A stretch of DNA of 37,689 nt from NCBI GenBank assembly GCA_021298655.1, contig JAJTFK010000011.1, forward strand, positions 1 through 37,689, given 5' to 3'. Source of the DNA: Cryomorphaceae bacterium. Its GTDB lineage: Bacteria > Bacteroidota > Bacteroidia > Flavobacteriales > Schleiferiaceae. This document shows, piece after piece, positions 11,824 to 25,119 of the stretch. Both the position numbers and the translations under genes were made by a program. The notes beneath the pieces were generated by a model, which was not told the origin of the DNA, did not search any database, and saw only the letters and a list, made by a program, of their open reading frames with translations. Numbering within the stretch: position 1 is the stretch's first letter; each line of letters opens with the position of its first letter.

Positions 11824-12876
11824 GTGCGTTACCAAAACTTTAGCATTCGCCTCAAGCAGCTTACCGAGGCAGCTGAACGCGGCGGTTGGTCCCTCGAGGA
11901 CCTGAATCGCGGGAGCGCTCGTCCATTTTGGGTTGCCACACACCCGCATGCTGTTGGGGCTCCCAATCGAATCGCGTGGTCCTTCATGCACGGCAACGAA
12001 CCCACGGGATTTGAGGCGCTGCTTGCGTTTATGGCGCAAGGTGCCCCACGGAACAATTGGACCTTGGTGCCCCTGGTGAATCCGACCGGTATTGATCGGT
12101 TTACCCGACTAACGGTGGACGGGGTTGACCTGAATCGCTGCGCCCGCATAACCGGTCCCGAGGAATCGGATCACCTCAAATCGGTGCTGCAGCGTGCGCC
12201 GTTTGAGCTTGCCCTGAATTTACACGACCAGCGAAGCATTTTTCATCCACGCGGACAATCCATCCCGAGTACCTTGAGCGTATTGGCACCGAGGGCGTTG
12301 ATCCAGGGTAAAGAATTTGTTCCGCAGCGCGCTAAGGAATGGGCGGGCTTGCTTAGCCAGGCGGTGGCAACCTTAGAGCCGGATTGGGGTTACGCGCGGT
12401 TTGACGACCAGTACTATCCGGAAGCCTTTGGAGAATGGACTCAGGAACTGGGCATTCCGACGGTAACCGTTGAAACGGGTGTGTCTCTCGGCGATTACGG
12501 CCGTACGAACATTGCGCGTCACCTTGCACGGGCACTTACGGTATTGGACCACACCCGGAAGCCGCTTAAAGAACACGCGGCTGGCTACGAGGCCTTGAAC
12601 GCCAATGAGTCTACGGGAATAGATTTGCTTCTGGAATCACCGTCCTGCCAAAGTTTTTGGAGGGTAGTGGAAGAGGTCCAGCCCGAGCTTGGCTACCGGT
12701 GGGGCATAGCAAGGTATTCCCCGGAAACGTCCGGAAGCGTGGTGGCCTATCAGCGCATTTTTATGGAATCCGAAGCGCACCTCAGCCTAAATGCTCGGGA
12801 TTTCTGGACCTCTTCAGCCCTTTACGCCAGCGCTTCTGAAGGGCTTCGGTCCTTTGCTGTCGGACTTCCCAGGTAG
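11824..12876 (+). CDS. M14-family zinc carboxypeptidase-like protein
   Basis: The 350 residues, with a GTG start, show the M14 metallopeptidase / succinylglutamate desuccinylase fold. Zinc ligands would be His56 and Glu59 in MHGNEPTG and His134 in LNLHDQR. Glu217 in VTVETG is the likely catalytic general base. NPTGIDRFTR and DGVDLNR are the usual substrate-carboxylate segments. No signal peptide is present, so it is probably cytoplasmic and may act on peptides or N-acyl amino acids. The last third (about residues 255-350) is not conserved enough for me to place. Its 3' end overlaps the convergent ssb gene by 55 bases. Confidence 0.85.
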   Translation: MRYQNFSIRLKQLTEAAERGGWSLEDLNRGSARPFWVATHPHAVGAPNRIAWSFMHGNEPTGFEALLAFMAQGAPRNNWTLVPLVNPTGIDRFTRLTVDGVDLNRCARITGPEESDHLKSVLQRAPFELALNLHDQRSIFHPRGQSIPSTLSVLAPRALIQGKEFVPQRAKEWAGLLSQAVATLEPDWGYARFDDQYYPEAFGEWTQELGIPTVTVETGVSLGDYGRTNIARHLARALTVLDHTRKPLKEHAAGYEALNANESTGIDLLLESPSCQSFWRVVEEVQPELGYRWGIARYSPETSGSVVAYQRIFMESEAHLSLNARDFWTSSALYASASEGLRSFAVGLPR

Positions 12877-13184
12877 GTAAAGTCCCGCGCGATAACCTCC
12901 GTTTTCGTGACGCTTTGCTGCTCGCTGTTGGTGTAGGTCGTGTAGGATAAGCTGCCCTCGACCGCGCACAAATCTCCTTTTTTAAGAAGTTTTCCGGCCC
13001 GAACCGCCAACTTGTTAAACATTACGAGCTGATGCCAGGTAGTGCGGTCTTCGTACGTGCCCGCGGCATTCTTAACTCGGTCGTGCGTGGCAATAGAGCA
13101 GCGCAGGCGAACCACCTCGTTCTCGAAGTTCTTGATTTCGGGGTCCTGCCCCAAGTAACCAATAAGCTGAATTTTGTTTTTCAT
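12822..13184 (-). CDS. ssb: Single-stranded DNA-binding protein, short form without acidic tail
   Basis: The 120 residues form a single OB-fold of the SSB type. Key parts are IQLIGYLGQDPEIKNF, RLRCSIATHD, TTWHQLVMFNKLAVRAGKLLKKGD and VEGSLSYTTYTN. Canonical SSBs end in a flexible linker and an acidic tip of the DDIPF type that recruits partner proteins. Here the chain ends about 15 residues after the fold, in KDRSPSEALA, with no such tip. It may therefore be a secondary SSB rather than the main replication protein. It is transcribed away from the zinc-ribbon gene across a 193-base spacer and overlaps the M14 gene at its 3' end. Confidence 0.9.
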   Translation of the reverse strand: MKNKIQLIGYLGQDPEIKNFENEVVRLRCSIATHDRVKNAAGTYEDRTTWHQLVMFNKLAVRAGKLLKKGDLCAVEGSLSYTTYTNSEQQSVTKTEVIARDFTYLGSPTAKDRSPSEALA

Positions 13185-13775: not shown

Positions 13776-15011
13776 ATGGCAAAGCGCTTTGTGGTAATCG
13801 GAGGAGGGGCTGCGGGCTTTTTTGCTGCGGTAGCAGCAGCTGAAGCCAATCCAGAAGCACAGGTTGTTTTGCTCGAAAAATCCGCGCAATTCCTTGGAAA
13901 GGTTCGGATTTCGGGAGGAGGTCGGTGCAACGTTACCCATGCGTGCTTTGATCCGCGCGATTTAGTGGAGTTTTACCCAAGGGGCGGGCAGGAATTGCTT
14001 GGCCCCTTTACTCGTTTTGCCTGCGGCGATACCATGGAATGGTTCGAAGACCGCGGCGTTGCGCTAAAGGTGGAGGAAGATGGCCGAGTTTTTCCGACCA
14101 GCGATCAATCGGAGACCATTGTAGATTGCCTCATGGGCATGGCTGAAGCGTCTGGCGTTCGCTGCTCCCTTCATTCGGGAATAAAACGGGTTGAGCCCGG
14201 GCAGGATGGAACGTGGACGGTTTTCCTGGAAAACGGTGATCAGGTTGGGGCGGATGCGGTGCTTTTCGCGCCGGGCGCGAGCAAGCGCATTTGGGATTCC
14301 CTCGAGGACCTAGGCCATCGAATTATACCCCCGGTTCCGTCGCTGTTCACTTTTAACATCCGCGATCCGCGCATTGCGGAGTTGGCGGGCGTTTCGGTTT
14401 CGAATGTTCGCGTTACGGTTCCCGTTGGCGGCCTAGAGACGGAGGGGCCGATGCTTATCACTCACTGGGGACTCAGCGGGCCTGCGGTACTGAAGATGAG
14501 CGCCTTTGGCGCTCGGTGGATGGCGGATCAGGATCACCGCTTTACGGTTTTTGTGAACTGGCTTCCGCAGTTCGACACCGCCGATGAGCTTTTGGACGCC
14601 TTGAATGCCCTTCGCAAGGACGCATCCCATCAGCGCAAACGCGTCCTTTCCAATGCCTTGTTTGGTATTCCGCTTCGCCTTTGGCGGAACCTGGGAATGT
14701 TTGCGCGCATTCCCGAATCCGCAAACTGGTCGGACCTGAGCAAGCCCCAGCTTCGAAAGTGGGCCGAGGTGCTCACGGAGTCTGCATTTTCGGTTGTGGG
14801 CAAGTCGACCCATAAGGATGAGTTTGTGACGGCAGGCGGCGTCGCCCTGAACGAGGTTTCGTTTGCAACCATGGAAAGCCGCCTGCATCCGGGGCTGTAT
14901 TTCGCGGGGGAAGTGCTGGATATTGATGCACTCACGGGCGGATTCAACTTCCAAGCAGCCTGGACTACGGGGTGGATTGCGGGGCACGCAATGGCTGGGG
15001 CGCCGATCTAA
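13776..15011 (+). CDS. HI0933/YhiN-family FAD-dependent oxidoreductase
   Basis: This 411-residue flavoprotein belongs to the HI0933 (TIGR00275, BaiN/YhiN-like) family. The N-terminal dinucleotide-binding loop is VIGGGAAGFFAA (residues 7-18). The family signature SGGGRCNVTH lies at residues 46-55. The C-terminal FAD-contacting segment is FAGEVLDIDALTGGFNFQAAW. The middle inserted domain includes LFTFNIRDPRI and GPMLITHWGLSGPAVL, also typical. The substrate and physiological role are unknown for most members. An in-frame TTG 27 bases upstream lies before the promoter box, and the ATG fits the family start (MAKRFVVIGG). Confidence 0.9.
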   Translation: MAKRFVVIGGGAAGFFAAVAAAEANPEAQVVLLEKSAQFLGKVRISGGGRCNVTHACFDPRDLVEFYPRGGQELLGPFTRFACGDTMEWFEDRGVALKVEEDGRVFPTSDQSETIVDCLMGMAEASGVRCSLHSGIKRVEPGQDGTWTVFLENGDQVGADAVLFAPGASKRIWDSLEDLGHRIIPPVPSLFTFNIRDPRIAELAGVSVSNVRVTVPVGGLETEGPMLITHWGLSGPAVLKMSAFGARWMADQDHRFTVFVNWLPQFDTADELLDALNALRKDASHQRKRVLSNALFGIPLRLWRNLGMFARIPESANWSDLSKPQLRKWAEVLTESAFSVVGKSTHKDEFVTAGGVALNEVSFATMESRLHPGLYFAGEVLDIDALTGGFNFQAAWTTGWIAGHAMAGAPI

Positions 15012-15017
15012 AAAAAA

Positions 15018-15058
15018 TTTGCCCTAATTCATTTTACTAACTATATTAGCATACTAAT
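15018..15058 (+). promoter_or_regulatory. Promoter with overlapping palindromic operator for the LexA-like repressor and dinB
   Basis: A TTTG (15018-15021) is followed after 20 bases by TATATTAG (15042-15049), one mismatch from TAnnTTTG; this is a good Bacteroidota promoter 18 bases before the ATG. The -7 box sits inside the inverted repeat CTAA-CTATA-TTAG (15037-15049). A second inverted repeat, TTAG-CATA-CTAA (15046-15057), shares its middle arm. Another CTAA lies at 15024-15027. A repressor bound here would cover the promoter, which suggests autoregulation by the gene that follows. Confidence 0.6.
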
Positions 15059-15067
15059 TTTAAATGT

Positions 15068-15847
15068 ATGGCACTCGCGGAGCAAATTAAAAAATACCGA
15101 AAAGCAAAGGGCTGGACCCAGGCTCAGTTGGCCGATCGATTGGGCTTAAGTCGCGCTCAGGTTGGATCCTACGAGGAGGGAAGGGCAGAGCCTCGACTCG
15201 ATTCATTAAAGGCCATGGCGCAGCTTTTCGGCTGCAGTATTGATGCCCTGGTTTCGGGAGATGGCCGCGCTCCCCAAGAGCTTTCGGGGCAGCGCCTTCG
15301 GGTACTCACGGTGGCGGTGGACCCCAAGGAGGGACGCGAGCGGGTTACGGTTGTTCCCGTTAAGGCTGCGGCAGGTTACCTCGGGGGCTATGGAGATCTT
15401 GATTTTATTGAGGCATTGCCGCAATTTGCCCTACCGCTTCCGGAGTTTGCTCACGAAGAAACGCGCAGGGTGTTTCAAATCCAGGGAGACAGTATGCTTC
15501 CGGTTTTGCCTGGGTCCTATGTGATTTCAAGCTACGTACAGGATTGGCGGAGTATTAAGACCAACGAATGCTACGTGTTCTTGACCCAGGAACAGGGCGT
15601 GGTCTTTAAGCGCGCCGTAAACAGGATTGAGGCGTCGGGGCATGTGGATTTAGTCTCCGACAATCCGATTTATGAACCGTACTCCGTTCACGTAGATGAT
15701 TTAATTGAGGTCTGGAAGGTACAGGGATTCATTCAGCTTGACCTCAACGCTCGCCCCAGCATGGATCAAGTAATTCTTGCGCGCTTGGAGAATCTTCAAA
15801 GCGAAGTTCACGCGCTGCGGCGCTCGCTGAATCAGCATGTAGCTTGA
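15068..15847 (+). CDS. LexA/CI-like self-cleaving repressor (XRE HTH + S24 peptidase)
   Basis: The 259 residues combine an N-terminal XRE helix-turn-helix (about residues 5-62, TQAQLADRLGLSRAQVGSYEEG) with a C-terminal S24/LexA-type peptidase. The catalytic pair is Ser142 (QGDSMLP) and Lys181 (GVVFKRAV). The predicted self-cleavage bond is Ala102-Gly103 in KAAAGYLGGYGD, at the usual distance before the serine. All parts needed for RecA-stimulated autocleavage are present. The HTH is of phage-repressor rather than classical LexA type. A C-terminal helix (about 235-259) may aid dimerisation. dinB begins 6 bases after its stop, so it probably represses its own operon and releases it after DNA damage. 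Confidence 0.9.
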   Translation: MALAEQIKKYRKAKGWTQAQLADRLGLSRAQVGSYEEGRAEPRLDSLKAMAQLFGCSIDALVSGDGRAPQELSGQRLRVLTVAVDPKEGRERVTVVPVKAAAGYLGGYGDLDFIEALPQFALPLPEFAHEETRRVFQIQGDSMLPVLPGSYVISSYVQDWRSIKTNECYVFLTQEQGVVFKRAVNRIEASGHVDLVSDNPIYEPYSVHVDDLIEVWKVQGFIQLDLNARPSMDQVILARLENLQSEVHALRRSLNQHVA

Positions 15848-15853
15848 TGCATT

Positions 15854-17065
15854 ATGGATCGGGTGGTGCTCCACATGGACCTCGACAGCTTTTTTGTTTC
15901 GGTGGAGCGCCTCGCAGACCGGCGCCTTCACGGAGTCCCCGTGTTGGTTGGTGGGCTAAGCGATCGAGGCGTAGTGGCGGCGTGCAGCTACGAGGCCCGG
16001 CAACTGGGTGTTCGTTCGGGAATGCCCATGCGAATGGCTCGGGAATACTGCCCTGAAGCGGTGGTTGTCCGGGGCAACTCGATGGAATACACCAAGCACT
16101 CCAAGGTGGTCACGGACATCGTGCGCCAGGCGGTCCCGGTTCTTGAAAAGGCTTCCATAGATGAGTTTTATGCGGATTTAAGCGGCATGGATCGCTTTTT
16201 TGGAACCTATCAATTTGCGCAAGAGCTTCGAGATCGGGTTATTCGGGAGTCGGGACTCCCTATTTCATTTGGGCTTTCCACAAGCAAGACGGTGGCCAAG
16301 GTGGCAACCGGGGAGGCCAAGCCGAATAACCACCGACACGTACCTCGAGGGGTGGAGCGCCCCTTCATGGCGCCTTTGTCTGTTCGAAAAATACCCATGG
16401 TGGGCGAGAAGACCTATCAAACGCTTCGCGTGCTGGGGATTCAACGCATTGCTACGCTCCAGGAAATGCCCGCCGAGATGCTTTACCAGGTACTTGGGGC
16501 GCCCGGATTGGACCTTTGGAGCAAGGCTCAGGGAGTAGACGACCGTCCGGTAAAGCCCTACAGCGAGCGAAAGTCCATCTCTACCGAGCGAACATTTGAG
16601 CAGGATACCCTAGATGAGGTTAAACTTCGCGGGATGCTGTTGGCTATGGCAGAAAACTTGGCGTTTCAGCTGCGTCGCGGACACCGACTCGCGAGCAATG
16701 TGGCGGTTCGCATTCGCTACGCGGACTTTCAGACCGTTTCGCGGCAGCGCCAGATTCCGTACACGGCTTCGGATGAAGTGCTTCTTGAGGTGGCGGGAGA
16801 GCTGTTTCGCCAGCTTCACGACCGCAGGCAGCGCATACGCCTCATCGGCGTCCGCTACAGCGGCCTCGTTGGGGGAGGGGAGCAGTTTGGTCTTTTTGAG
16901 GTAGACGACCGGGGGCACCGATTGAGTGAAGCCATGGATCGAATCCGCACGCGGTTTGGGGATCGTTCGGTGGTTCGCGCGTTCGGAATGGCGGCACAGA
17001 CCATTGGTCGAGCAAATCCCTTTACGGGAGACCCGCCGCCACTTTTGGCTAATCGAAGGCAGTAA
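15854..17065 (+). CDS. dinB: DNA polymerase IV (Y-family translesion polymerase)
   Basis: This 403-residue Y-family polymerase copies past damaged bases with low fidelity. Metal-binding acids are Asp9 (HMDLDSFF) and Asp103-Glu104 (SIDEFYADLSG). The aromatic steric-gate position follows in DSFF. SFGLSTSKTVAKVATGEAKP is the palm-fingers block, and KIPMVGEKTYQTLRVLGI is the helix-hairpin-helix thumb region. The little-finger domain occupies about residues 235-345. A beta-clamp-binding type motif QFGLF lies at 344-348, with about 55 further residues after it. It is intact and probably active, unlike the polymerase-dead ImuB found in some DnaE2 cassettes. It is co-transcribed with the repressor. 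Confidence 0.95.
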   Translation: MDRVVLHMDLDSFFVSVERLADRRLHGVPVLVGGLSDRGVVAACSYEARQLGVRSGMPMRMAREYCPEAVVVRGNSMEYTKHSKVVTDIVRQAVPVLEKASIDEFYADLSGMDRFFGTYQFAQELRDRVIRESGLPISFGLSTSKTVAKVATGEAKPNNHRHVPRGVERPFMAPLSVRKIPMVGEKTYQTLRVLGIQRIATLQEMPAEMLYQVLGAPGLDLWSKAQGVDDRPVKPYSERKSISTERTFEQDTLDEVKLRGMLLAMAENLAFQLRRGHRLASNVAVRIRYADFQTVSRQRQIPYTASDEVLLEVAGELFRQLHDRRQRIRLIGVRYSGLVGGGEQFGLFEVDDRGHRLSEAMDRIRTRFGDRSVVRAFGMAAQTIGRANPFTGDPPPLLANRRQ

Positions 17066-17104
17066 AACGACCCATAGTATTCATCTATTGATTTTTTTAA
17101 AATA

Positions 17105-17134
17105 TTGAAAACCAGTTTTTCAAATATAATTAGT
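17105..17134 (+). promoter_or_regulatory. Candidate operator region for SRAP-dnaE2, related to the repressor operator
   Basis: The 91-base AT-rich gap after dinB holds a perfect inverted repeat, TTGAAAA-CCAGT-TTTTCAA (17105-17123). It also holds, at 17121-17134 on the minus strand, the sequence ACTAATTATATTTG. This agrees at 12 of 14 positions with ACTAACTATATTAG in front of the LexA-like gene. The shared form is CTAA-N5-TT(A/T)G. I see no clear -7 box here, so promoter placement is uncertain. The resemblance suggests control by the same repressor. Confidence 0.45.
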
Positions 17135-17156
17135 TAATGTTTTAATTTAATAAAAA

Positions 17157-17936
17157 ATGTGCGGACGCTATGTTCAGGTTTCTAAGCTTGAGGTGCTCGA
17201 AAAGCGCTTCGAGGCGGCAGCGGCACAGCCTGAATTGTGGCGCCCCAACGCGAATGTGGCTCCAGGTACTCGGGCGCCGGTAGTTACGTCGAACGCCCCG
17301 AAGGAAATTCAATTTTATCAGTTTGGTTTTCGTCCCGCGTGGGGAACGGCCCAAATGCTGTTCCTCAACGCGCGGTCGGAGGGCGACCACAATCCCGACA
17401 ACGATCCCGGGTACCGTGGAGCGAAGGGCATTATTCAAAAGCCCAGTTTCCGAAAGGCAATTCGGAGTCAGCGCTGCCTGGTCTTGGCGGATGCATTTAT
17501 TGAAGGCCCGTTCGATCGAAAGCTAAGCGAGCCCTACCTGGTGTACCTCACGGGAAGGGAGCGCCCATTTGCCATGGCTGGGATTTGGGATTCATGGCTC
17601 GACCCAACGACCCAAAACGAACTCTTTTCATTTGCCGTAATCACCACGACGGCCAACGAAGTACTTCAGCGCATCCGACATCCGCGTTCTCCGGTTATTC
17701 TCCCGAGGGAAGCTGAGGCTGCGTGGCTTTCGCCCGACACCGAACTGGCCGATATTACGGATTTGCTTGCGCCCTGGCCGGCCCGGAAAATGAATGCCTA
17801 CCCCATTAGCCCGGCGATTAAGCGCCCGTCCGCACAGGGATTGGAGCTGCTCAACCCCATAGGTGAGCGAATTTTTCCAGAAGAGGAACTGCGCCTTACC
17901 GACGACATTGAGCTTCAGGGAGCTAAATCTCGTTAG
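17157..17936 (+). CDS. SRAP-domain protein (YedK/HMCES type)
   Basis: SRAP proteins form a stable thiazolidine crosslink with abasic sites in single-stranded DNA and shield them from error-prone processing. The 259 residues start MCGRY, so after methionine removal Cys2 becomes the reactive N-terminal residue. Other expected active-site residues are Asn71 and Arg73 (LNARSE), Glu116 and His175 (RIRHPRSPVIL). The glutamate lies in AFIEGP, where most family members have FYEW, so its surroundings differ. Ten bases separate its stop from the GTG of the DnaE2-like gene. Its place between two translesion-type polymerases fits a role at damaged replication forks. Confidence 0.92.
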   Translation: MCGRYVQVSKLEVLEKRFEAAAAQPELWRPNANVAPGTRAPVVTSNAPKEIQFYQFGFRPAWGTAQMLFLNARSEGDHNPDNDPGYRGAKGIIQKPSFRKAIRSQRCLVLADAFIEGPFDRKLSEPYLVYLTGRERPFAMAGIWDSWLDPTTQNELFSFAVITTTANEVLQRIRHPRSPVILPREAEAAWLSPDTELADITDLLAPWPARKMNAYPISPAIKRPSAQGLELLNPIGERIFPEEELRLTDDIELQGAKSR

Positions 17937-17946
17937 GTGATCGGCC

Positions 17947-20900
17947 GTGCGCATTACCCACACCGCCATGAGCATGCATTTCGGACTGCATGCTCCCGAA
18001 CAAGTGCTTCGTTTCGCAGCACAGTGGGGCGCAGGCACGCGTCTTATTGCGGCTGAAGTCAACGGATCGGGCGGATGGCTCAGCATGCTGCGCCAAGCGG
18101 AAATCCCCCTGCAGCCCGGGGTGGATTGGCGATTGGGTGGTCTGCGAACCCTGTTGCTGCTGCCTCGGTCGCTGGATGCCTATCGCTTTATAATGCACTG
18201 GATTAGCGAGATGCGCGCACTAAATCGGGTAGGGGATGCTTCTGATTGGATGGCCGGCCCCCTGCATGCGGACGTAGATGTTGTTTTCCCCATTCAGCGC
18301 GCACCGAAGCGCCTGCTCGGACCGCGCGAATGGCTTGGCGTGAGCGACCACGAGCAGCTTCGCGCCCAGCGGCACCCGCAACCCAACCGAGCCTTGGCCT
18401 GGAAGACCTGTGTTTTTGCGCGTCCAGAAGACCCGGAACTTCACCGCGTACTGCGTGCCATTGGTCAAAACAGAACATTGGCCACCCTTCCAGAAGGTTC
18501 GGTGCTCGAGGAGCGGGACCCGTGGTGGGAGTCGGTCGAACGTACCCAGCAACGGTTTGAACCCTGGATTTGGCGGCAAACCGAAGGATTTCTCGCAGAG
18601 CTACCCGAGTGGAGCCTTGATCTGTGGCGCGGAACGGGCAACCAAAACCAGTCTACGTACACCGGGCGGCGCAGCAAAGACCGAGCGTTGCTGCGCATGC
18701 TGTGCGACGATGCGCTGCACGAGCGCTACCCGGGCAGGGCCAACGACCCCGTGCTGAAGGCCCGGCTTGAAAAGGAACTGGAACTGATTCAGCAAAAGGA
18801 CTTTGTCGCCTACTTCCTGCTGAATTGGGACATCGTTCGCTACGCCCAAAAGCAGCATTTCTTTTACGTTGGACGGGGGAGTGGAGCAAATTCAATAGTT
18901 GCCTATCTGCTTAAAATTACGAATGTTGACCCTATTGAATTAGACCTTTACTTCGAGCGATTCATCAACCTTTACCGCAGCGCGCCGCCGGACTTCGACA
19001 TTGATTTTTCGTGGCGAGACCGCCCAAGGCTAACCGAGTACATTTTCACTCGGTTTCCGCACACCGCCTTGCTCGGAGCCGTTAGCACCTTCCAGCACCG
19101 CGCGGTCGTTCGCGAACTGGGCAAGGTTTGGGGGCTACCCAAGTCCGACATCGACGAGTTGGCCGACGGAAAACTCAGGGACCGTGACGAAACCGCCCGG
19201 GCCATTCTTCGCTACGGCCGCTTCCTGCACGGGCTGCCCAACCGCATGACGCTGCATTCCAGCGGAATACTTATTGCCAACGCCCCGTTGACTACCTGGT
19301 CCACGACCTTTATCCCGCCCAAGGGCTTTGCAACCGTGGACCTGGACATGCACGTTGCCGAAGACGTGGGACTGCACAAGTTTGACATTTTAGGCCAACG
19401 CGGACTCAGTAAAATCTCCGAAACACTCGCCACGCTGCAGCAAGCGGGAATTCCAACTGCAGACATTCACGACAGCCAGCGATTCAAGCAGGATCCGCAT
19501 TGCCTCGAACTTCTGCGCAACGGCGGCGCCATGGGTTGCTTTTACGTCGAATCCCCGGCAATGCGCATGCTGATGACCAAGCTTCAAACCTCGAACTACC
19601 TTGAGCTGGTCGCGGCAAGCTCCGTAATCCGCCCCGGCGTATCGTCGTCGGGAATGATGAAGGCCTACATCGATCGCCACCGCAATCCGGAGCTCCGGGC
19701 CCAGGCTAATCCGGACCTACTGCGGATTCTTCCCGATACCTACGGAGTCATGGTATACCAAGAAGACGTGATTCGCGTGGCCCACGAATACGCTGGACTC
19801 ACCCTGGCCGAGGCCGACGTTCTTCGGCGCGGAATGTCCGGAAAATTCCGTTCCCGAACGGAATTCCAGGAAGTTGAGCGTCAGTTTTTCGCCAACTGCG
19901 CCCAACGCGGACACTCCTCCGAAGCCGCTCGCGAAGTGTGGCGCCAAATCGAAAGCTTTGCCGGGTACGCCTTCGCCAAGGGCCACTCCGCATCCTATGC
20001 TGTAGAAAGCTTTCAAAGCCTCTACCTAAAGGCCTACTTTCCAGTGCCCTTCATGGTTGCCAACGTCAACAACGGCGGCGGCTACTACCGGGCGGAGCAC
20101 TACCTCAACGAAGCCCGCAGGCACGGAGCGCGCATCGAACCGCCCTGCGTCAACGAGGGGCGAACCTTCACCGTGCTTCATTCAGGATTCCGAGTAATCC
20201 TCGGAACCGACCGAATCCGCAGTTTTGACGCGGAATTCGGACGACGAATCGACCGTGCCCGGCAGGAGGGAGGCCCCTTCGCTGATCTTGACGATTTTAT
20301 TGACCGCCTTCACCAACCCGGGGCCCCAGTGGCACTCGACTCCCTGCTTCTTCTGGTCCGGGCCGAAGCCTTCCGCTTCACGGGCCGCCCCGCGCGCACG
20401 CTTCTCTGGGCGGCCCACCGGCGCCTGGGCCACCGCCCGCCGCCGGCGCCCGGCCCCAGTCTTTTCGACTCCGCAATGCCGCTCAAGCCCGCATACGCAG
20501 CCATCCCCGAGCTCAAAACCAGCGACTTAGAGCGCTCCTACGAGCAGATTGAACTCTTTGGATTTCCGCTTTGCGACCCCTTTACGCTGTTTGAAATCCC
20601 TGAAATTCAGGCAGGATGCCCCCCCGAAGACTGGCCGCTGCACCACGGGGCCGCAATCGAACTACTTGGCTACCTCGTGAGCCTAAAAAACACCAAGACC
20701 GTTCGCGGAGACTGGATGCAAATCGGAACCTTCGAAGACCGGCGAGGCGTCGTATTTGACGTGGTACTTTTTCCGCCCGCCGTGGCGCGCCACGCCATCC
20801 GCCGCCGGGGAATCTACCTAATGCGCGGCCGAATCTCCGTGGACTACGGCTACGCCAGCCTCGATGTACAGCACCTAGAGCGTTGCGCGCCCAAGCTTGA

Positions 20901-21009
20901 TCCGCGCTTCGACGAGACGCCTGCGCACTTGATGCCCGTAGCCACGAAGTCGGGCCGCGGAATGACCGTGGGCCGCAATCCAATCAAGTCGCTGCTCCGC
21001 GGCGCCTAA
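17947..21009 (+). CDS. dnaE2: DNA polymerase III alpha-type subunit, DnaE2-like (error-prone class)
   Basis: This 1020-residue C-family polymerase is shorter than typical replicative DnaE. The GTG at 17947 gives MRITHTAMSMHFGLH; ATGs at 17968 and 17974 are alternatives. The polymerase core is intact: GRGSGANSIVAYLLKITNVDP, the catalytic pair Asp351 and Asp353 (PDFDIDF), and the third Asp480 (HKFDILGQRGL). The fingers region includes YGVMVYQEDV and FAGYAFAKGHSASYA. A C-terminal OB-fold spans about residues 895-965 (IELLGYLVSLKNTKTVRGD). The N-terminal PHP region lacks the usual metal ligands; for example, the LTDHD position reads AAEVNG. Position and size indicate the damage-tolerance polymerase DnaE2, but no ImuA or ImuB gene is adjacent. 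Confidence 0.88.
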   Translation: MRITHTAMSMHFGLHAPEQVLRFAAQWGAGTRLIAAEVNGSGGWLSMLRQAEIPLQPGVDWRLGGLRTLLLLPRSLDAYRFIMHWISEMRALNRVGDASDWMAGPLHADVDVVFPIQRAPKRLLGPREWLGVSDHEQLRAQRHPQPNRALAWKTCVFARPEDPELHRVLRAIGQNRTLATLPEGSVLEERDPWWESVERTQQRFEPWIWRQTEGFLAELPEWSLDLWRGTGNQNQSTYTGRRSKDRALLRMLCDDALHERYPGRANDPVLKARLEKELELIQQKDFVAYFLLNWDIVRYAQKQHFFYVGRGSGANSIVAYLLKITNVDPIELDLYFERFINLYRSAPPDFDIDFSWRDRPRLTEYIFTRFPHTALLGAVSTFQHRAVVRELGKVWGLPKSDIDELADGKLRDRDETARAILRYGRFLHGLPNRMTLHSSGILIANAPLTTWSTTFIPPKGFATVDLDMHVAEDVGLHKFDILGQRGLSKISETLATLQQAGIPTADIHDSQRFKQDPHCLELLRNGGAMGCFYVESPAMRMLMTKLQTSNYLELVAASSVIRPGVSSSGMMKAYIDRHRNPELRAQANPDLLRILPDTYGVMVYQEDVIRVAHEYAGLTLAEADVLRRGMSGKFRSRTEFQEVERQFFANCAQRGHSSEAAREVWRQIESFAGYAFAKGHSASYAVESFQSLYLKAYFPVPFMVANVNNGGGYYRAEHYLNEARRHGARIEPPCVNEGRTFTVLHSGFRVILGTDRIRSFDAEFGRRIDRARQEGGPFADLDDFIDRLHQPGAPVALDSLLLLVRAEAFRFTGRPARTLLWAAHRRLGHRPPPAPGPSLFDSAMPLKPAYAAIPELKTSDLERSYEQIELFGFPLCDPFTLFEIPEIQAGCPPEDWPLHHGAAIELLGYLVSLKNTKTVRGDWMQIGTFEDRRGVVFDVVLFPPAVARHAIRRRGIYLMRGRISVDYGYASLDVQHLERCAPKLDPRFDETPAHLMPVATKSGRGMTVGRNPIKSLLRGA

Positions 21010-22611: not shown

Positions 22612-25119
22612 TTATTCGGCCGAATCCGCGCCACCCTCGTCCGACGCAACGCCTTCGATGCCCTCCGCCCCTTCTTCCAGTTCCGAGGCAGGAACCTTGG
22701 CTACCGAAGCAATCAACTCGCCCGACTTAAGGTTGATCAAGCGCACCCCTTGCGTGGCACGACCCATAACCCGCAGATCGGCAGCGGCCATGCGAATCAT
22801 GATGCCGCGCTTGGTGGTAATCATCAAGTCGTCCTCGTCCGTAATGTCCTTGATGGCAATGACATCGCCGGTTTTGTCGGTGACGTTTAAGGTTTTAACC
22901 CCTTTTCCGCCCCGGTTGGTAATGCGGTAGTCTTCGACCAGGGTGCGTTTACCGTAGCCGTTTTCGCTCACGACCAAGATGGAATCCTGCTCGCTCGCGG
23001 CGCAGACCATACCCACCACTTCGTCGTTCTCCGTATCCAAGGCCATGGCGCGCACGCCCGATGCACCCCGGCCCATGGGGCGAACTTTTGCCTCGGGGAA
23101 GCGAATGGCCTTTCCGCTGCGGACGGCCATAATGATTTCATTGCCTCCGTTGGTCAAACGAGCCTCGAGCAGGGTGTCTCCGTCGCGAACGCCGATGGCA
23201 TGAATTCCGTTGGCACGCGGGCGGCTATACGCCTCCAGGGTGGTCTTCTTGATGATGCCCTTAACCGTACAAAGCACGACGTAGTGGCTGTTCACGTACT
23301 CCTCGTCCTTCAGGTCCTTCGTGTTAATGAAGGCACGCACTTTATCGTCGCTCGGCAAATTGATCAAGTTGACAATGGCCTTGCCCTTGCTCGTGCGGTT
23401 CCCCTCGGGAATCTCATAGACGCGCAGCCAGAAGCAGCGACCCTGTTCGGTGAAAAACAGCAGGTAATTGTGGTTGGTCGCGACAAACACATGCTCGATG
23501 AAGTCTTCGTCGCGGGTGGTTGCGCCCCGCGACCCCACTCCGCCCCTACTCTGGGTTTTGTATTCCGTCAAGGCGGTACGCTTCACGTAGCCCATGTGCG
23601 AAATGGTAATGACCACCTCTTCGTCGGCAATCATGTCCTCCATGCGCATGTCGCCACCCGAAAAGTCGATTTCGGTCCGGCGCTCGTCGCCGAACTTGTC
23701 GCGGACCTCAATAAGCTCGTCTTTGATGATCTGCATGCGCAGGTCCACCTCGTTGAGAATTCGCTGCAGGTAGGCGATTTGCTCCATGAGCTCGTTGTAC
23801 TCGGCCTTAATCTTATCGCGCTCCAAGCCGGTAAGCTTCTGCAAACGCAGGTCGAGAATGGCCTTTGACTGAATTTCGCTCAAGCCAAAGCTGCTCATCA
23901 AACCATCTTTGGCGAGTTCAACCGTCTCCGACGCACGGATCAGCTTGATGACCGCATCAAGGTTGTCAATGGCAATCAAGAGGCCTTCGAGAACGTGTGC
24001 GCGCTTTTGGGCCTCCGATAATTCATACTTAGATCGGCGCACCACGACCTCATGGCGGTGCTCGACGAAGTACTTGATCATGTCCTTGAGGTTCAGCAGC
24101 ATCGGTCGGCCGTTCACCAGGGCAATGTTGTTTACGCTGAAGCTCGACTGCAGCTGAGTGTACTTGTAAAGCTTGTTAAGCACCACATTGGGTACGGCTT
24201 CGCGCTTGCACACGTACACGATGCGCATTCCGTTTCGGTCCGACTCGTCGCGGATGTCGGCAATTCCATCGAGTTTTTTCTCGTCGACCAAGTCTGCCGT
24301 CTTCTTGATCATGTCGGCTTTATTGACCTGATACGGGATCTCCGTGACAATGATGCAGTCGCGGCCATTCACCTCTTCGATGTGGGCCTTGGCGCGCAGT
24401 ACGATTCGGCCACGGCCGGTTTCAAACGCTTCGCGCACCCCGTCGTAGCCGTAGATTGTTCCGCCCGTCGGGAAATCAGGTGCGGTAATGTGCTTCATCA
24501 AATCAAGCACCTCCACGTCGTTGTTTTCGATGTACGCGATTGTGGCGTTGATCGACTCCGTCAGGTTGTGGGGCGGCATGTTGGTAGCCATACCGACCGC
24601 AATGCCCGAAGCGCCATTGACCAAAAGGGCCGGAATGCGCGTCGGAAGCACCGTGGGTTCCTCGCGTGAATCGTCGTAGTTCAGCTTAAAATCGACGGTA
24701 TCCTTATCGATGTCGCGCACGAGCTCTTCGGTGATCTTCCGCATCCGCACCTCGGTGTAGCGCATAGCTGCCGGGGCATCGCCGTCCATCGATCCAAAGT
24801 TTCCCTGTCCGTCGACGAGCATGTAGCGGAGGCTCCACTCCTGGGCCATGCGCACAATGGTGTCGTAAATGGCGGAGTCGCCGTGTGGGTGGTACTTACC
24901 CATTACCTCACCGACCACGAGTGCGGACTTTTTGTAGGCCTTGTAAGAATGGTTGCCCATTTCGTTCATGCCAAAAAGGACCCTGCGGTGAACCGGCTTG
25001 AGTCCATCGCGCACATCCGGAAGTGCGCGCGAAACAATCACCGACATGGAGTAGTCGATGTAGGAGGTTTTCATTTCCTCCTCAATATTTATCGGTATAA
25101 TGCGTTCGCCTTCGGCCAT
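22612..25119 (-). CDS. gyrA: DNA gyrase subunit A
   Basis: This is the breakage-reunion subunit of the type II topoisomerase that introduces negative supercoils; GyrB must be encoded elsewhere. The 835 residues begin with the conserved block around DYSMSVIVSRALPDVRDGLKP in shorter pieces. The active-site tyrosine is Tyr121 (AMRYTEVRM). The quinolone-resistance region reads HPHGDSAIYD, with Ser82 and Asp86 equivalent to E. coli Ser83 and Asp87, i.e. the unmutated type. The C-terminal propeller carries the GyrA box TNRGGKG, which separates gyrase from topoisomerase IV. The tail is acidic. A -7 box lies 25 bases upstream and an intrinsic terminator follows. Confidence 0.97.
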   Translation of the reverse strand: MAEGERIIPINIEEEMKTSYIDYSMSVIVSRALPDVRDGLKPVHRRVLFGMNEMGNHSYKAYKKSALVVGEVMGKYHPHGDSAIYDTIVRMAQEWSLRYMLVDGQGNFGSMDGDAPAAMRYTEVRMRKITEELVRDIDKDTVDFKLNYDDSREEPTVLPTRIPALLVNGASGIAVGMATNMPPHNLTESINATIAYIENNDVEVLDLMKHITAPDFPTGGTIYGYDGVREAFETGRGRIVLRAKAHIEEVNGRDCIIVTEIPYQVNKADMIKKTADLVDEKKLDGIADIRDESDRNGMRIVYVCKREAVPNVVLNKLYKYTQLQSSFSVNNIALVNGRPMLLNLKDMIKYFVEHRHEVVVRRSKYELSEAQKRAHVLEGLLIAIDNLDAVIKLIRASETVELAKDGLMSSFGLSEIQSKAILDLRLQKLTGLERDKIKAEYNELMEQIAYLQRILNEVDLRMQIIKDELIEVRDKFGDERRTEIDFSGGDMRMEDMIADEEVVITISHMGYVKRTALTEYKTQSRGGVGSRGATTRDEDFIEHVFVATNHNYLLFFTEQGRCFWLRVYEIPEGNRTSKGKAIVNLINLPSDDKVRAFINTKDLKDEEYVNSHYVVLCTVKGIIKKTTLEAYSRPRANGIHAIGVRDGDTLLEARLTNGGNEIIMAVRSGKAIRFPEAKVRPMGRGASGVRAMALDTENDEVVGMVCAASEQDSILVVSENGYGKRTLVEDYRITNRGGKGVKTLNVTDKTGDVIAIKDITDEDDLMITTKRGIMIRMAAADLRVMGRATQGVRLINLKSGELIASVAKVPASELEEGAEGIEGVASDEGGADSAE

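Follow-up and report, generated by a model that had tools for sequence, protein, structure and literature searches.

A probable self-regulated operon of DnaE2, an intact Y-family polymerase and an SRAP protein in a Cryomorphaceae bacterium

The four-gene cassette

The stretch of DNA analysed here, referred to as the window, comprises 37,689 nucleotides (nt) of contig JAJTFK010000011.1 (C41) of the Cryomorphaceae bacterium assembly GCA_021298655.1, a genome of 1.6 Mb that is 97% complete. It carries a cassette of four intact genes on the same strand in the order repressor, Y-family polymerase (PolY), SRAP protein and C-family polymerase (DnaE2), with gaps of 6, 91 and 10 nt between successive genes. 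The presence, order and intactness of these adjacent genes, as described in an earlier sequence-only reading of the window, were confirmed by the list of open reading frames (ORFs), by Pfam domain matches and by active-site residues. In profile searches the same genome yielded one match each for Y-family polymerase, S24 peptidase, SRAP and RecA, and a replicative DnaE separate from DnaE2 is also present.

Repressor and operator

The first gene (15068..15847, + strand) encodes an XRE/CI-like S24 repressor of the non-canonical LexA type with a length of 259 amino acids and the domains HTH_3 (PF01381) and Peptidase_S24 (PF00717). It is the only S24 match in its genome, and alignment showed that the cleavage residues Ala102-Gly103, Ser142 and Lys181 are present. 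Located 31 to 19 nt before the ATG of the repressor, the sequence CTAACTATATTAG (15037..15049, +) is an exact copy of CTAA-N5-TTAG, which has been reported as the operator of the non-canonical LexA of Bacteroidetes (PMC8565304). An exact operator near the repressor start was found in 29 of 37 same-strand cassettes, seven more had sites with 7/8 matches and one had a site with 6, compared to exact sites in 50 of 1850 random 400-nt stretches taken from the same loci as a control. Where the repressor gene is divergent (n = 16), an exact site was present in two cases and a 7/8 match in one.

A genome-wide scan for exact matches only returned three operators versus 25 occurrences of the reversed pattern. 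The second exact site lies where a truA-like ORF ends, before an ABC-transporter-like ORF (L003), and the third adjoins a MarR-like ORF (L004), all of these names being taken from reading the ORFs. A candidate for a second operator of the cassette, located before the SRAP gene (CAAATATAATTAG at 17121, 7/8), was ruled out due to its lack of conservation in the genus.

PolY

The second gene (15854..17065, +) encodes a Y-family polymerase of 403 amino acids with the domains IMS (PF00817) and IMS_C (PF11799), which is expected to be active, as its catalytic residues Asp9, Asp103 and Glu104 are invariant in all eight aligned sequences. PolY is the only Y-family match in its genome and, since this sole gene is intact, no ImuB was found. 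With the Pfam RecA model a single RecA-family match was obtained in the genome, namely RecA itself, so that there is no sign of ImuA either; a dedicated ImuA model gave no match over the cut-off in 88 genomes of the family, but it was equally silent in 14 of 14 control genomes and therefore cannot show that ImuA is absent. These results uphold the earlier proposal of a Bacteroidota DnaE2 module, in which no ImuB was found and ImuA left no sign.

Three short elements follow one another in the C-terminal part of PolY. The clamp-binding sequence motif QFGLF (residues 344-348; 16883..16897, +) is of the type Qxx[LMI][FYL], which is retained in 166 of 167 PolY relatives. Judged by this motif, PolY is the likely clamp link of the module, in agreement with the role that had been suggested for an active DinB. 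Residues 356-376 (16919..16981, +) form a RecA-NT-like motif, detected as an hhalign profile match to RecA N-termini with a probability of 90% and a score of 25.3, which was reached in none of 200 column shuffles (maximum 15.6); this stretch corresponds to the RecA-NT motif described in PMC6511836 and PMC12926913. Given this motif in PolY, RecA, and not SRAP, most likely fills the place of ImuA. The motif is followed by a conserved C-terminal tail, NPFTGDPPPLLANRRQ (17015..17062, +), with the consensus NPFxGxPPxLLANR, and a tail of this type was found in 132 of the 167 relatives; a cassette SRAP accompanies 52 of these PolYs and is missing for the other 80. The tail of UmuC binds a partner, and by analogy the PolY tail may do the same.

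Across the genus one Y-family match was obtained in 19 of 22 genomes and none in the other three. At most one such match per genome was seen in the genera g1, g144, g154 and g157, and a second one is present in most genera of the family with larger genomes. The nearest named relatives of PolY are from Flavobacteriales bins (Baikal-G4, 89% identity), followed by Cryomorphaceae/Schleiferiaceae bins and, at lower ranks, by Phaeocystidibacter luteus and Owenweeksia sp. TMED14.

DnaE2

The last gene of the cassette (17947..21009, +) starts with GTG and encodes a DnaE2-type C-family polymerase of 1020 amino acids with the domains DNA_pol3_alpha (PF07733), finger (PF17657) and HHH_6 (PF14579). Its catalytic residues Asp349, Asp351 and Asp480 are identical in all 99 aligned DnaE2 sequences, and in the N-terminal PHP region, read by eye, the metal ligands remain only as remnants. 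At the clamp site Gln is found in only four of the 99 sequences, and the DnaE2 of the window has Gly at this position. The notion that a short DnaE2 is a special trait of this cassette was rejected.

Strong matches to the DnaE2 of the window were obtained in 19 of the 22 genomes of the genus, and, leaving aside the genome of the window, 18 of 21 have a DnaE2 that shares between 51% and 89% identity with it. In a draw of 296 genomes from the phylum, 44 matched at E 1e-190 or better (three of these with an internal stop), a count from which matches may be missing as no more than two candidates were scored per genome; all 44 belong to the same class as the window, which contributed 73 genomes to the draw.

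In other Bacteroidota DnaE2 was found split into two genes (L250-L255, from G031, G184, G116, G124, G263 and G062). Frames for the C-terminal half, corresponding to approximately residues 496-986 of the DnaE2 of the window, were detected in 18 of the 296 genomes, one of them cut at a contig end. In four of the six loci fetched, the N-terminal half (approximately positions 1-500 of the hidden Markov model) is a separate ORF nearby, and in three of these it lies beside PolY. The break falls directly after the third catalytic Asp motif without an extension of intein size; in the available portions of PMC3919608 and PMC12926913 split DnaE is mentioned only for cyanobacterial inteins.

SRAP protein

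Between PolY and DnaE2 lies the gene of an SRAP protein of 259 amino acids (17157..17936, +; SRAP, PF02586), the sequence of which matches the structures of YedK and HMCES. Alignment showed Cys2, Asn71, Arg73, Glu116 and His175 to be present. Cys2, Asn71, Glu116 and His175 correspond to Cys2, residue 75, Glu105 and His160 of YedK, which form the cross-link to the abasic site (PMC9436759), the equivalence of the residues being judged from motif context. The start Met-Cys-Gly was found in 54 of 56 cassette SRAPs and the remaining two are cut at contig ends.

Within the genus one SRAP match was obtained in 14 of 22 genomes, two pieces in one (G345) and none in seven. In a tree of 59 SRAP sequences the 46 cassette members form one group together with L170, which was labelled as a solo gene, yet belongs to a broken cassette, and the other 12 standalone SRAPs fall outside this group. 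The fork that separates the cassette SRAPs has modest support (80/68) and several of the standalone sequences have long branches.

Gene order and spread

Gene order was surveyed at 101 loci, comprising 40 of the 52 DnaE2 matches at E<=1e-190 found in the phylum draw besides that of the window, 60 loci from the family and the window itself. Score limits of 140 bits for S24, 300 for PolY, 300 for SRAP and 250 for DnaE2 were applied, and several of the stretches end at contig ends. The order of the window, S24-PolY-SRAP-DnaE2, was found at 28 loci including the window, which makes the arrangement more than a matter of chance. Further same-strand orders with SRAP were S24-SRAP-DnaE2-PolY (4 loci), SRAP-DnaE2 (3 loci) and PolY-SRAP-DnaE2 (1 locus). 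Orders without SRAP were PolY-DnaE2 (23 loci), a divergent S24 gene with PolY-DnaE2 (15 loci), DnaE2-PolY (7 loci), S24-PolY-DnaE2 (5 loci) and a divergent S24 gene with DnaE2-PolY (1 locus), and at 14 loci DnaE2 was found alone.

Only one survey locus outside the family of the window carries a cassette SRAP (L036). A further 84 loci (80 named and four viral) overlap in part with the contigs of the survey; 18 of them carry PolY-SRAP-DnaE2, either accompanied by S24 or lacking it, and one carries S24-SRAP-DnaE2-PolY. SRAP accompanies DnaE2 also in other Flavobacteriales, with a shuffled gene order.

Pairs of PolY and DnaE2 were also seen on contigs called viral, namely with a divergent S24 repressor and an integrase (L247), with a distant SRAP (L248) and near a large phage-family protein with weak tail matches (L249). 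The PolY-DnaE2 cassette may be mobile.

Neighbouring genes and an intergenic element

The cassette of the window is flanked on the opposite strand by ssb (12822-13184, −) and gyrA (22612-25119, −), and a gene for a flavin adenine dinucleotide (FAD) enzyme is a further neighbour. No exact operator was found at ssb or gyrA in a scan of the window.

The gap between PolY and SRAP contains the element ATAG-N7-YTAT-N23-YCAG (17074..17115, +) with fixed spacing. In the form ATAG-N7-YTAT-N23/24-YCAR it follows PolY at all 22 PolY-bearing loci of the genera g1, g144 and g153, and it was found at none of 12 loci of g157 and none of 51 others. Four of the 22 loci have no SRAP and the element there precedes DnaE2. 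In the genome of the window the pattern occurs once per strand, versus 0 and 1 for the control. An RNA structure was considered and proved to be unsupported, with an RNAalifold energy of −0.4 kcal/mol: 84.6% of the cells were paired, a value reached by 14 of 500 shuffles, the count of doubly changed pairs was reached by 91 of 500, and the core of helix 1 is invariant. Rfam gave no match within 14900-18100, and scans for terminators and promoters remained at chance level. As a guess, the element could be a DNA site or a promoter.

Proposed function and alternative explanations

The cassette is probably a self-regulated SOS operon for an error-prone complex of the DnaE2-PolY-RecA type combined with an abasic-site shield. 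In the undamaged cell the CI-like LexA would be bound to CTAA-N5-TTAG and repress the operon to which it belongs. Upon damage, RecA filaments formed on single-stranded DNA would trigger self-cleavage of the repressor at Ala102-Gly103 and thereby free the operon. PolY would dock on the sliding clamp via QFGLF and on RecA via its RecA-NT motif, and it would bring in DnaE2, which itself lacks the Gln of the clamp motif. SRAP would cap abasic sites via Cys2 and keep them shielded while other lesions are bypassed. The genes, their catalytic residues, the operator, the RecA-NT motif and the conserved co-occurrence are read from the DNA itself; cleavage of the repressor, induction, complex formation and cross-linking by SRAP are predicted from known relatives, and the way in which SRAP and the polymerases would share the work is the most speculative part. 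The interpretation given in the sequence-only reading holds in part, and that reading had overlooked both the operator and the RecA-NT motif.

Several observations weigh against this proposal. No site with at least 7/8 matches was found within 300 nt upstream of recA in eight of eight genomes of the genus, and induction through this repressor would therefore not extend to RecA. Among five other family members recA is preceded by an exact operator in one (G362, a g157 relative, at −25) and by a 7/8 match in one (G309). As three exact operators were found genome-wide and recA is preceded by none of them, this operon may be all that is left of the regulon in this genus. A strict pattern for the catalytic motifs was failed by 12 of the 167 PolY relatives. 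No cassette SRAP above 300 bits was found at 65 of the 101 survey loci, or at 60 if the five S24-PolY-DnaE2 loci are left out, and four genomes of the genus (G335, G339, G352 and G353; 89-95% complete) have kept S24-PolY-DnaE2 without any SRAP match, which makes SRAP an accessory of the other three genes.

This loss in a subclade of the genus and the many loci without a cassette SRAP also favour the view that SRAP is a mere co-regulated neighbour, which handles abasic sites alone and independently of the polymerases, and SRAP genes have been reported to belong to the SOS regulon of several species (PMC8565304). Set against it are the grouping of the cassette SRAPs apart from 12 standalone ones, at a fork of modest support, and the fact that SRAP immediately precedes DnaE2 in every same-strand order that includes it, an arrangement that recurs beyond a single family; on balance this view falls only a little short of even. 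That SRAP and DinB serve DnaE2 as structural adaptors instead of ImuA and ImuB, as had been proposed from the sequence, is suggested by the position of SRAP adjoining dnaE2, where imuB would be. The RecA-binding type of motif in PolY, the four genomes that keep the cassette without SRAP, and the intact cross-linking site of SRAP, which is what an enzyme would be expected to have, speak against such adaptors. The claim that SRAP stands in the place of ImuA or ImuB was abandoned as very unlikely, and DinB as a substitute for ImuA was likewise rejected.

PolY and DnaE2 could also be two independent polymerases that share only an operon, since both are catalytically intact by sequence and DnaE2 lacks a PolY within the stretch examined at 14 of the 101 loci. 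Such independence is considered unlikely in view of PolY-DnaE2 pairs that recur in either order, the rarity of Gln at the clamp site of DnaE2 and complexes of this kind that were modelled with good scores (PMC12926913). An origin as a prophage remnant under a phage CI repressor, instead of a host SOS operon, would fit the phage-repressor type of the N-terminal domain of the repressor and the PolY-DnaE2 pairs on viral contigs by an integrase or a large phage-family protein. It is barely credible for the window, where gyrA, ssb and the FAD enzyme gene are the neighbours, where DnaE2 is conserved across most of the genus and where the operator is conserved in the family.

Significance

DnaE2 is typical of bacteria with fairly large genomes (PMC12926913), and here genomes of 1.3-1.8 Mb retain it alongside a repressor of its own and a putative abasic-site shield; no other Y-family or SOS-type set was found in them. 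They offer a simple natural setting for asking why small genomes retain induced mutagenesis, and the same setting is suited to the question of whether abasic-site shielding and bypass are coordinated. HMCES, an SRAP protein of eukaryotes, has been reported as an inhibitor of mutagenic translesion synthesis (PMC9436759). A more far-reaching and rather doubtful proposal is that in several Flavobacteriales families SRAP is a dedicated partner of the DnaE2-PolY-RecA mutasome that steers mutagenic bypass, and that in the genus of the window the regulon has shrunk to one self-repressing operon. As such a partner, SRAP would cap abasic sites at the same forks and keep the mutasome off them. In the open-licence literature no paper on SRAP and DnaE2 together in Flavobacteriales was found, which does not prove that none has been published.

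Comparison with known systems

The repressor resembles the non-canonical LexA of Bacteroidetes in its HTH_3 and S24 domains, its cleavage residues and the operator before its own gene (PMC8565304). It differs in that recA and several further operons belong to the regulon as published, whereas here only three exact sites were found; as regulon size is treated as variable in that paper, a small regulon does not exclude membership of this type. A published account of SRAP in a DinB operon names LexA and a DnaE paralog as possible members, as found here, whereas its available text names no Bacteroidetes.

In many bacteria DnaE2 works with ImuA and ImuB, the latter being an inactive Y-family adaptor. 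As in this mutasome, DnaE2 is combined in the cassette of the window with a repressor of the LexA type and a Y-family protein as the likely clamp link, but this Y-family protein is catalytically intact, no ImuB was found and no sign of ImuA was seen.

The closest likeness is to the DnaE2B-PolY-RecA module. An active PolY with a RecA-NT motif that partners DnaE2 and RecA in the absence of ImuA and ImuB has already been predicted for Bacteroidetes (PMC6511836, PMC12926913), and judged from its sequence the core of the cassette appears to match this module, with an intact PolY that bears the RecA-NT motif and adjoins DnaE2. In the available portions of these two papers SRAP is not named as part of the module. 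In the window, by contrast, the SRAP gene is located between PolY and DnaE2 and a repressor gene stands on the same strand at the head. The core set has thus been predicted in print before, and the cassette of the window, with its SRAP gene and a regulon that seems to have shrunk, represents a variant of it.

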